Below are positions 2,893-7,013 of a DNA stretch of 64,000 bases, piece by piece (position 1 is the stretch's first letter; each line of letters opens with the position of its first letter). The position numbers were made by a program, and so were the translations under genes. This DNA comes from Verrucomicrobiia bacterium (lineage in GTDB: Bacteria; Verrucomicrobiota; Verrucomicrobiia; Verrucomicrobiales; DEV007): assembly GCA_020439995.1 (NCBI GenBank), contig JAGROY010000137.1, positions 1-64,000 on the forward strand, given 5' to 3'. The notes beneath the pieces are model-generated. The model was given only the letters and a program-made list of their open reading frames with translations. It did no database searches and was not told the DNA's origin.

Positions 2893-3726
2893 CTATTCGC
2901 TGATCTGGCCACTCCCGATGATGGCTCCCATGCGAGTGATTACGAACTTGTCACCGGCGGTGACTTCTATTGGGTTTTCGAGTTTCAGGACGGCTGGGCT
3001 GGAGGTGCCCGTGTTGATGGTGGCTTCCACTTCGAACACGGCTTTGGAGTGTCCCCCGGGGAATACAACATCCAGCTTTTTTCCATTCTTGATGGATTGG
3101 AGTGCGTGGGGAGCGGGAGATTCTGTGCCTTTTGGAAGGGTGATGACGGCTTTGAGAGAGTCGTTGGATTTGCGCGCGGGCACAGTGCGGGGAGTGGCTT
3201 TTCCAGCAAGGGTAAGGACGGCCTCCCATCCTTTGGTTGCAAAGTCTCCTTCAGCGTCAGCGGAGTCGGTAGCGACGATCAATCCTTTTACTCCAAACAT
3301 CGCCCCAACCTCCTGAATTTCTTTTTCCTTCTCTTTTAGCCAAGCGCCGCTGTCAAAATTGGAGTCGGCGCTCCCATCGCCAACAGTGTCTGCGTCAGTC
3401 AGCACCACAATGGTGGTGGAAGGCTGGAGCAATCCAGCAATCGATATCTGTTCTTTGTCAAGTGGACGCAATCCTTTTGCACCCACCGTGATGACCAGCG
3501 CATCTGCAGCTGCGGCAGCCGGAAAGCGTTCCGGCAAAGGGTGAGGAGCAATCGTGGCGGTGCCCAGTTTGGCAGAGGAAAGGCCGGAATCCGGGGGCGT
3601 TAGGGTTACAATTTTAACGGGTACTGTAGAGTTGCTGCTGCCTGTGACATTTTCTGAATCGGAATTAGAGCAGGACACCAACAAAACTGAAGCGATCAGA
3701 AAGGGGAGGGATAGGATAAATTTCAT
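2893..3726 (-). CDS. Lipoprotein derived from elongation factor Tu (degenerate GTPase)
   Basis: A 277-residue lipoprotein: residues 1-18 are a signal peptide and LLVSC places the lipidated Cys at 19. Residues about 72-180 follow the second half of the EF-Tu GTPase domain. They include a strand and loop like the one before NKxD (here TDAD at 110-113 instead of N-K-x-D), the SA dipeptide (155-156), EGD (159-161), WEA (167-169) and LAG (173-175), in EF-Tu order and spacing. IKNGKKLDVV (212-221) resembles EF-Tu domain 2. Residues 251-275 resemble the end of domain 3 (NPI, then G, F.I, and G...GSG). The P-loop and switch regions are absent and NKxD is altered, so GTP binding and translation factor activity are not expected. 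It is the last gene of a three-gene exported-protein run. Its function is unknown, and a surface or periplasmic role is inferred. Confidence 0.75.
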   Translation of the reverse strand: MKFILSLPFLIASVLLVSCSNSDSENVTGSSNSTVPVKIVTLTPPDSGLSSAKLGTATIAPHPLPERFPAAAAADALVITVGAKGLRPLDKEQISIAGLLQPSTTIVVLTDADTVGDGSADSNFDSGAWLKEKEKEIQEVGAMFGVKGLIVATDSADAEGDFATKGWEAVLTLAGKATPRTVPARKSNDSLKAVITLPKGTESPAPHALQSIKNGKKLDVVFPGGHSKAVFEVEATINTGTSSPAVLKLENPIEVTAGDKFVITRMGAIIGSGQISE

Positions 3727-3782: not shown

Positions 3783-5216
3783 TCAGGGGAGGAGCGTCAT
3801 TTGTATGTTAGATGCTGATTTTGACTGGGATGAGATTAAGAGCATGTAGTCGCTTGCAAAGGGGATCAGGTTTGCCGAAAATTCCCTGGGTTCACCGGGC
3901 TTCACCTCGGTGCGGACGAATCCTTTTACCTTCAGGGAATCATCGCGGAAGGGTTCTCTTACTGGCCGGTCAACGAACTGACGCGCCTGTTGCCAGAAAT
4001 CCAGTTCGACAGGGCTGAATATGAAGAATCCTCCAGACTCAACGCGAACCATTCCTTGAATCATTACCGTCTGATATTGATGAAGGAGGTCTTTGGAGCT
4101 GGCGATTGGAAGCCGAACCATGCCGCGTAATTCTCCAACTTCAATGCGGCCAGTAATCTCGGCATTGCTATGAGTGCTGAAGGATCTCTTCGTCTGCCTG
4201 CTGACAGAATGAACTTTTCCTCGCGATTGGTCATTCAGAGTTTCGACAAAGGAACTGCTCTCAATGAAGTTGTGGAGCATTGAACGCGCGGTTGATTCCT
4301 GAATTTCTGCATCACTGTACCTGCCGTCAATCTTGCTCAATAGTTCCGCAGGAATCTCCTCATCTGCCTCGGCAGGTCGGTAAATGATTTCTTTGAGGCT
4401 AGTCCATGCAAGCAGAGGTGAAAGGTCGTCCACTTTATTATCACTGATGTTCAAAGAGGTTACCGAGGAACTAACCTCCAGTCGATCGAGGTCTGTCAGT
4501 ACATTGTTACTGAGGTCAACGGACGTCAGTTTCGACAAACGATCGATTCCATCCAGGGCTGTCAGCTGATTGCTCTTCAGAACCAGTGTTTCGAGATTTG
4601 GTAGCTGCTCCAATCCGCTTATCTTTTTGATATGGTTGTGACTGAGAACCAGAGTTTTGAGATTAGACAACATGCCCGGAATTGTCACCGTTTCGAGTTG
4701 ATGCCGCTCGACGGACAAACTTTGCAGCCCGCTCAAACTCATCACTGGGGCGAAGTCGCGAATCTCAGTCGAGATAATCTTTGCAGATTGCAGGCTTTTG
4801 CACGATTCGATTCCGTGCAGTGAATTCAAATCCCCGTAAGCAAGCTGGATAGTCGTCAGGCCTGGCGGACAATGTGCCAAGTTCACGATCTGCATCTTTC
4901 TCAGGTTCAGGTCGACTAGCGCATCCATCTGGGATAGTGCTTCCAGGCTGCGCACTCCCGTGGCTCTGATTGAATGCACACGCTTATCTCTCACCAGCAC
5001 TGATTGGTCACTGCGATGCCCGTTTTCCGCTTCCACGGAGAAGTTTTTTGGATCAAAGGCGTTGGCTTGTAGCCATTGTTTGAGTGCAATGGCATCAGCT
5101 GAGTGTAATTTACCGGACTCCTTCATCCAGTGGTCCAGGTTATTCCGCTTCTGGCAGGAAAACAGCAGCGTTACCCCTGAGATACAAAATAGGATGATAA
5201 TCAGTTCTTTAAGCAT
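3783..5216 (-). CDS. Leucine-rich-repeat lipoprotein
   Basis: A 477-residue lipoprotein with signal peptide 1-20 and lipobox LLFSC (Cys21). Residues about 85-270 contain seven to nine leucine-rich repeats of roughly 20-22 residues, with patterns such as LKTLVLSHNHIKKISGLEQL, LETLVLKSNQLTALDGIDRL and LTSVDLSNNVLTDLDRL. This is the internalin/SDS22-like class with an L-x-x-L-x-L-x-x-N core. The C-terminal 200 residues have no repeats and form an unrecognised domain. LRR domains bind proteins or glycans, but the ligand is unknown. The start is 9 bp after the stop of the upstream propeller-like gene and the stop is 56 bp before the EF-Tu-like lipoprotein, so the three are probably co-transcribed. 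Confidence 0.85.
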   Translation of the reverse strand: MLKELIIILFCISGVTLLFSCQKRNNLDHWMKESGKLHSADAIALKQWLQANAFDPKNFSVEAENGHRSDQSVLVRDKRVHSIRATGVRSLEALSQMDALVDLNLRKMQIVNLAHCPPGLTTIQLAYGDLNSLHGIESCKSLQSAKIISTEIRDFAPVMSLSGLQSLSVERHQLETVTIPGMLSNLKTLVLSHNHIKKISGLEQLPNLETLVLKSNQLTALDGIDRLSKLTSVDLSNNVLTDLDRLEVSSSVTSLNISDNKVDDLSPLLAWTSLKEIIYRPAEADEEIPAELLSKIDGRYSDAEIQESTARSMLHNFIESSSFVETLNDQSRGKVHSVSRQTKRSFSTHSNAEITGRIEVGELRGMVRLPIASSKDLLHQYQTVMIQGMVRVESGGFFIFSPVELDFWQQARQFVDRPVREPFRDDSLKVKGFVRTEVKPGEPREFSANLIPFASDYMLLISSQSKSASNIQMTLLP

Positions 5217-5225
5217 GTTGCCAAG

Positions 5226-7013
5226 TTACTTTGATTCGATCCGGATCCGGAAGTGAGCGTTGCGGGGTGGGGAGGTATCTGGCCAGCGATAGGTGACAAA
5301 TTCCCAACCGGGCCGCAGGAAATTTGGAAAGGTTCTGTCCTCGACGATCTGACCATTGCCACTGCTCCAGGATTGAAGGTCAGTGCTCACTTCAGGGATA
5401 CATCGAAGTCCTTCGAAATTTTCATAACTGCCGTCGGCGTAGCGCTTCGCATTGGTGCGTCGTTGAAAGGTGAATGCGGGAACTTCCTTTCTTACGAGGA
5501 ATGGCAACGTTCCAGCAAATACCGTTCCTTTGTCAGGGAAGGTCCTCCATTTAGAATAATCGCTCGGGTCACTGTCACTTGCTCCCATCGCCTCTTCGAG
5601 AAGAATAGATGCTCCATCTCGATCCAGATCGTCAGAATCAGGCACGCTCACTGCCAAAACCATTTCCACGGTATCTGTTGATTCATTTCTGCGCCCAAAA
5701 AGCATGCCAAATCGCCCTTCCGAAGTTGCTGCGATCTTCACCAGGCGAGAAGGGTTTCCGAGGAAGTAGTCGGCGTCAGCGGAGTCTAGAGGCAGTGGCT
5801 GCGAAGGCGGAAGATAGAATCCTTCATTTCTGGTGATCGTTGCTGCAGCGTTTACTTGTATAAATGACTGTCGAGCGAAAGCGACATGTGATCGTTCACT
5901 GTCACTGCCAGGCGGAGCAACAAAGCTGACGTCGCTCAAGGCACTATCCTCGCCTTCGCAGCCAACGGGCCCTACTCCAAGATCAATTACGAACACCCCA
6001 GTCCCTGCGTATGAACCTTTGGAGATCGATGCGGATTTCTCAATGCAATTCGAAATGGTTTCCTTGAACCAGAAAACCGGGGCCTGCCCGCCCAGTTTTG
6101 TATAGGCGCTACCGCCCTTGCCGTAACCAACTTCGATCAGCCCGGGGGAGCTGCTGAATGTTCGCAAGCTAATGGTCGGGGTAAAGTCACGAAGACTGTC
6201 TGATCGATCGATCATTGAGATCGGCCAATCGCCTGCATCGGACAGGGTGCCTTGTTGTAAGATAATGCGATTTCCGTTCTGGCCATCATCCGCGACATAG
6301 CCAACGGCAGCGCCTTCCCGCGGTCGGTCATTGGTGAAAACAACTGCTGGTGTGCATCTTGCGTGAGGTGTGGTGCCGAGTTTCCGTGTGCCCCAGGTGC
6401 TCGCGGTTGAGTTGGCGTCGCTGCTTTCGGCGTAGATCACCTCAAACGCTCCCGGAGTGTCGATCGCCTTGTCGGTCCTTGAAAGGTAGACCAAGGCAAC
6501 GCGCGGCTCACGCACCGTTCCACCCCCGACTATGGACACTTGAGCGATGCCTTTGCCGTTCTGGAACAGAGTCGTTCCTCGAAAGCTGCCATTTCTGGGC
6601 CGCGCAGTGTAACTTACGTTGCTGCCTTTTGAGACAAACACCACGTGCACCGTGCCCCGGGCGTCAACTGCGATACTGGGAGGCGCCACTAGACTGTCGC
6701 TTGAAGTTGCGATCTGCACTGGCTCGTTCAAACCACTGGCACGAGACCAGCTTCGATAGAAAACTGCGCCGGAATCCAATCGCCAATAGGTCATGTGAAA
6801 ATCGCCATCCGGACCGGCTGCGATATCTCCCTGCTGTCCTGGGATGTTGGGATCCCAGTCATTTTCGGCCTGAACGATGGGAATCATCGTCAACCGAGGA
6901 GACGCCTCGGCGAGAGAGGCGAGTATTAGCAGGCCGCAGATGCCAACACTTGCAAGTATGGAGATTGAGATCTTCGATTCCGTGTTCGTCATTGCATTTG
7001 ATTCGACTTTCAT
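5226..7013 (-). CDS. Exported BNR/sialidase-like propeller protein
   Basis: About 595 residues. The start at 7013 is chosen because GGAAAG precedes it and a clean signal peptide follows (core SISILASVGICGLLILASLAEA). An ATG at 6992 is an equally possible start. The open frame extends to 7247, but that upstream part lies in the divergent promoter region. Residues about 40-440 have repeated blocks like IAAGPDGDFHMTYW and SIAVDARGTVHVVFV, which fit BNR or similar beta-propeller blades. No catalytic RIP motif or sialidase triad is evident. After DRDGASILLEEAMG comes a C-terminal module ending CIPEVSTDLQSW...HFRIRIESK, like the sorting or C-terminal module common in secreted verrucomicrobial proteins. 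It heads the run that continues with the LRR and EF-Tu-like lipoproteins. Confidence 0.75.
   Translation of the reverse strand: MKVESNAMTNTESKISISILASVGICGLLILASLAEASPRLTMIPIVQAENDWDPNIPGQQGDIAAGPDGDFHMTYWRLDSGAVFYRSWSRASGLNEPVQIATSSDSLVAPPSIAVDARGTVHVVFVSKGSNVSYTARPRNGSFRGTTLFQNGKGIAQVSIVGGGTVREPRVALVYLSRTDKAIDTPGAFEVIYAESSDANSTASTWGTRKLGTTPHARCTPAVVFTNDRPREGAAVGYVADDGQNGNRIILQQGTLSDAGDWPISMIDRSDSLRDFTPTISLRTFSSSPGLIEVGYGKGGSAYTKLGGQAPVFWFKETISNCIEKSASISKGSYAGTGVFVIDLGVGPVGCEGEDSALSDVSFVAPPGSDSERSHVAFARQSFIQVNAAATITRNEGFYLPPSQPLPLDSADADYFLGNPSRLVKIAATSEGRFGMLFGRRNESTDTVEMVLAVSVPDSDDLDRDGASILLEEAMGASDSDPSDYSKWRTFPDKGTVFAGTLPFLVRKEVPAFTFQRRTNAKRYADGSYENFEGLRCIPEVSTDLQSWSSGNGQIVEDRTFPNFLRPGWEFVTYRWPDTSPPRNAHFRIRIESK

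Follow-up and report, generated by a model that had tools for sequence, protein, structure and literature searches.

The window analysed here is a 64,000-nt stretch of contig JAGROY010000137.1 from a Verrucomicrobiia bacterium. An open reading frame on its minus strand (2893..3726) runs intact from an ATG start and encodes a protein of 277 aa, P0001, which begins with MKFILSLPFLIASVLLVSC. Homologues in two other genomes and a match of the family profile to EF-Tu (E 7.8e-19) mark P0001 as a predicted lipoprotein derived from EF-Tu. The G+C content of the gene at the three codon positions (0.58, 0.48 and 0.56) resembles that of the adjoining leucine-rich-repeat (LRR) and propeller genes. The LRR gene (3783..5216, minus strand; PF12799, E 7.1e-19) also encodes a lipoprotein; it lies 56 bases upstream of the P0001 gene, and the two are probably co-transcribed. 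A further 9 bases upstream of the LRR gene, at 5226-6992 on the minus strand, is the gene for a secreted propeller-like protein of about 588 aa, for which no Pfam match was obtained.

The initial annotation had placed a lipobox at Cys19 of P0001, and this was borne out. Residues 1-19 (3670..3726, minus strand) have the features of a type II signal peptide, with a maximum 8-residue hydropathy of 3.16, the lipobox LVSC and Ser at position +2 from the Cys. The two homologues have the lipobox LAAC (LLAAC) at Cys16, and Ser at +2 is common to all three proteins, which are all lipoproteins by sequence. The charged n-region, the hydrophobic core and the lipobox Cys were recognized from the sequence in each of the three. 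The prediction that P0001 is exported and lipid-anchored is well supported on these grounds. The Ser at +2 predicts sorting to the outer membrane only, not exposure at the surface.

To analyze the distribution of the protein, we searched 384 genomes of the class and found one full-length match to P0001, in G317, a genome from a different family within the order (per-genome E 4.7e-5). This protein, P0004, matches P0001 end to end in BLASTP (1e-6). A two-sequence profile of P0001 and P0004 then recovered a third member at 3.5e-57, in a Prosthecobacter MAG (G495/L122, JAIPJY010000102.1), so that the two other carriers represent two further families of Verrucomicrobiales, the order of the window organism. 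The two homologues are 47% identical to each other, and P0001 is 27% identical to P0004 and 21% identical to the Prosthecobacter protein. Both homologues contain an unmistakable stretch of the EF-Tu G domain. Residues 97-201 of P0004 match EF-Tu crystal structures at E 6e-17, with ELLELEELEMRELL in P0004 corresponding to ELLELVEMEVRELL in EF-Tu. No fourth member was found in 388 genomes from the phylum, in 68 from the family of the Prosthecobacter MAG or in 260 from that of the P0004 genome. Likewise, a pattern scan of genome contigs with P0001, a search of viral contigs with the two-homologue alignment and a tblastn search of plasmids and phages with the Prosthecobacter protein added nothing new, and these searches together indicate a rare and scattered distribution. 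The weak matches L003, L008, L012, L086 and L088 turned out on reading to be unrelated or antisense frames and were discarded. As judged from their sequences, the window protein and its two divergent relatives are a small, real family.

P0001 taken alone resembles EF-Tu and SelB only weakly. The initial annotation had proposed a search with EF-Tu profiles; for the single protein, domain 3 (PF03143) reached E 0.098 over residues 233-277, which is below the Pfam cut-off, and domain 2 (PF03144) gave no match. The selB profile TIGR00475 matched residues 74-121 at E 0.2, and a single-sequence search of PDB sequences with P0001 returned nothing relevant. In pairwise BLASTP with proteins of its own genome, P0001 matched SelB at E 3e-5 over domain 3 and EF-Tu at 0.63. 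By hmmsearch it scored 16.2 bits against SelB and 4.4 bits against EF-Tu, the latter inside the range of shuffled sequences, so the EF-Tu ancestry of P0001 rests on its link to the family. That link is clear: against a profile of the other two members P0001 scored 33.6 bits, and the best of 2000 shuffles, all of which left the signal peptide unchanged, scored 7.0. Comparing the single sequence with profiles by hhalign, we obtained 24.6 for EF-Tu (best of 200 shuffles, 22.6) and 34.0 for SelB (best of 200 shuffles, 27.9). The profile of all three proteins matched EF-Tu at the E value given above over both the G domain and domain 3, and genuine EF-Tus matched the family profile at 1e-15 to 1e-23, all in one register. 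The descent from EF-Tu that had been proposed from the DNA letters is thus supported by the two homologues and by the family profile.

The three-protein profile covers EF-Tu residues 96-203 and then 300-392, and the approximately 97 residues skipped between them are the whole of domain 2. In P0001, residues 71-185 (3172..3516, minus strand) correspond to the later half of the G domain in EF-Tu, about residues 96-203 of the E. coli protein (E 1.4e-17 when the family G-part was aligned to EF-Tu with hhalign), with a 9-residue insertion before helix D. Residues 186-277 (2896..3171, minus strand) correspond to the domain 3 barrel of EF-Tu and SelB (hhalign E 3.6e-6 and 6e-7, respectively), in agreement with the domain 3-like end noted earlier. 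Domain 3 is joined straight to the G domain; domain 2 is absent, and the profile alignment skips EF-Tu residues from about 204 to 299. The decapeptide IKNGKKLDVV, formerly read as domain 2-like, instead falls within domain 3, where SelB has IKNGQKV. The order of EF-Tu-like motifs described for the G domain is real, with TDAD at the NKxD site, except that the motif LAG has no verifiable counterpart in EF-Tu.

The first 70 residues of P0001 could not be aligned to EF-Tu by profile comparison, and the local profile alignment starts only at residue 71. Residues 36-70 (3517..3621, minus strand), at the position of the P-loop half, are predicted in AlphaFold2 models to form two strands and a helix, and the motif scan found no P-loop, switch I or DxPGH there. 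Excision of switch I and strand 2 would leave such an arrangement. The loss extends to the whole family: the G1 P-loop GxxxxGK[ST], switch I and the G3 motif DxPGH are absent from all three members, so the missing P-loop reported for P0001 holds for its relatives too. The position aligned with the catalytic His84 is Ala, Ser and Ser in the three proteins, in a stretch where the alignment is uncertain, and the G4 motif NKxD is replaced by TDAD, ARSA and SKSA. Loss of the GTPase in this family is therefore a well-supported prediction. The initial annotation had pictured a cut-down copy that lost GTPase function and gained a lipidation signal, and homologues from two other families support this picture.

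We modeled P0001 with AlphaFold2. The single-sequence model had a mean pLDDT of 47, and in a Foldseek search EF-Tu appeared throughout the top matches listed (best 2.8e-8). When the Prosthecobacter homologue was added, pLDDT rose to 80-90 in much of the last 90 residues, and the G-domain half remained of low confidence (mostly below 50). With this two-sequence model, EF-Tu again came first in Foldseek (3.3e-10), and GTP-form EF-Tus reached a TM score of 0.5 by query length. A predicted fold like that of EF-Tu, as suggested from the sequence, is consistent with these top matches, within the low confidence of the G-domain half.

When a tree was built with 44 EF-Tus, the three members fell into one clade, with support of 100/100 on saturated branches. 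This clade and the shared loss of domain 2 favour a single origin; long-branch attraction is possible, and because the branches are saturated, the shared deletions carry as much weight in this conclusion as the tree does. We considered whether the ancestor may have been SelB or another EF-Tu-like factor instead of EF-Tu itself. The higher SelB score of P0001 alone and the SelB-like IKNG motif in its domain 3 point that way, but helix D in the two members that have diverged less is specific to EF-Tu (ELLELEELEMRELL, compared with ELLELVEMEVRELL in EF-Tu), and P0004 matches EF-Tu at 6e-17 vs 0.81 for a SelB-type factor. At the level of the family, the G-part matches EF-Tu at 1.4e-17 vs 6.1e-7 for SelB, a comparison that largely refutes a SelB origin, and we regard such a descent as very unlikely. 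It would be more improbable still that P0001 is a decaying gene without function or a chance resemblance. The rare, sporadic distribution and the strong divergence of P0001 would fit decay; however, the reading frames are intact in all three members, and all three have lipoboxes. Codons of the two homologues differ by 37% at position 1, 32% at position 2 and 61% at position 3, and this excess at third positions is the pattern of a protein under selection. Chance similarity is excluded by the shuffle controls.

The initial annotation had also suggested that related genomes would carry the same lipoprotein beside the LRR and propeller genes, which did not hold: neither relative has any neighbour in common with the window. 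Full-length orthologues of the LRR lipoprotein (41% and 36%) occur in two genomes of the family, G098 and G058, and in neither genome does an EF-Tu-like lipoprotein adjoin the orthologue. With no shared neighbours and LRR orthologues that occur without the lipoprotein, the idea that the LRR and propeller genes form a conserved operon with it was rejected. One of the two homologues adjoins SMI1-like/ankyrin and pseudouridine synthase genes, and the other lies near mobile-element-like primase genes (names assigned by eye in both cases). Since only three members were found, none with shared neighbours, the genome context gives no pointer to a partner. Additionally, we noticed by eye that the gene directly downstream of the lipoprotein gene in G317 (L090:7467-8282) encodes an SMI1/KNR4-like protein with C-terminal ankyrin-like repeats. 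SMI1/KNR4-like ankyrin-type proteins are often immunity proteins.

Taking the losses and the signal peptide into account, we think it rather probable that P0001 is an exported, lipid-anchored pseudo-GTPase, with a single origin in an EF-Tu gene within or near Verrucomicrobiales, that serves as a static protein-binding scaffold or adaptor. The sequence shows that the P-loop, switch I, the catalytic His, NKxD and domain 2 have been lost and that a type II signal peptide stands ahead of what was retained, namely domain 3 and the rear half of the G domain, with helices C and D of EF-Tu. P0001 would cross the inner membrane by Sec, be lipidated at Cys19 and, if the E. coli rule for Ser at +2 applies, be sorted to the outer membrane. 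There the two-domain unit may act as a scaffold or adaptor, whether within the periplasm or on the cell surface. As it has neither a phosphate-binding loop nor domain 2, a GTP cycle and aminoacyl-tRNA binding are impossible in any form known for EF-Tu. With slightly more confidence than doubt, we further see in P0001 a dedicated, inherited extracytoplasmic EF-Tu, that is, a lipoprotein of the envelope whose selected binding function does not depend on translation or GTP.

A scaffold or adaptor in the envelope appears to be the most economical reading, and a surface adhesin and a decoy would be narrower forms of the same idea, neither of them favoured by the data. As an adhesin, the lipoprotein would hard-wire the moonlighting known from many bacterial surfaces for full-length EF-Tu and for its proteolytic fragments, by binding extracellular polymers or other cells, and a lipidated copy would directly solve the export problem. 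Surface EF-Tu and its fragments do bind many macromolecules despite having no signal sequence (PMC5593925, PMC6822514), but the published binding is tied to positively charged short motifs (PMC5593925), and one of the relatives belongs to an environmental MAG for which no host is known. We consider this version unlikely. We give less credence to a decoy that captures, in the envelope, EF-Tu-dependent toxins of competitors or EF-Tu-targeting (elfamycin) antibiotics. The pieces kept include the neighbourhood of domains 1 and 3, where kirromycin binds EF-Tu, and Q124 and Y160 are retained in both homologues. However, a decoy would need to keep the bound surface, and P0001 shares only 22% identity with EF-Tu in the G part, with L120, Q124 and L148 changed. 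A number of delivered toxins depend on EF-Tu or bind it (PMC9086364), but the CdiA-CT of NC101 contacts domain 2 (PMC9086364); this domain is missing from P0001, which weakens the case for a decoy of CdiA-type toxins.

Compared with EF-Tu (PF00009, PF03144 and PF03143), the lipoprotein family has a homologous second half of the G domain and a homologous domain 3 in the same order. It differs in lacking the P-loop, switch I, catalytic His, NKxD and domain 2, in its added lipoprotein signal peptide and in its identity to EF-Tu of 22-31% over the G part. The presence of EF-Tu on cell surfaces has long been disputed, since it has no export signal and lysed cells could release it. Bacteria have repeatedly been found to display EF-Tu, which carries no signal sequence, on their surfaces (PMC6822514, PMC5593925). 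P0001 shares with such moonlighting EF-Tu and its fragments (PMC5593925, PMC6822514) a predicted place outside the cytoplasm; unlike them, it is not the normal tuf product but is encoded by a gene of its own, which supplies a signal dedicated to export and lipidation. Archaeal aSelBL (EF-Pyl) is likewise a translation-factor paralogue of patchy distribution whose GTPase domain is ruined and whose motifs are lost (PMC3037878). In contrast to the lipoproteins, aSelBL keeps domain 2 in addition to domain 3, still has its ribosome contacts and aminoacyl pocket, and has not been described as an exported protein (PMC3037878). We found no description of a family of EF-Tu-derived lipoproteins in the open-access literature. 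The gene would offer a clean case of an exported EF-Tu scaffold; as it could be deleted without affecting translation, the binding of EF-Tu surfaces to targets outside the cell could be put to the test. It would also be an unusual example of a translation factor that lost its enzyme core and a whole domain and stayed under selection.

A stand-alone protein of 115 aa from a genome of the same bacterial family (L051:1793-2140, G111:C192) consists almost only of EF-Tu domain 3; it scores 31.4 bits against PF03143, over the cut-off, has no signal peptide and lies in a context unrelated to that of the lipoprotein. The window organism's own EF-Tu (L004:1-930, G000:C120) has a lower PF03143 score than other EF-Tus of the family, and one EF-Tu of the same genus (L072, G001:C135) is long-branched. 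On C302, the end of a second tuf gene adjoins secE/nusG/rplK, and the genus may hold one normal and one fast-evolving EF-Tu.
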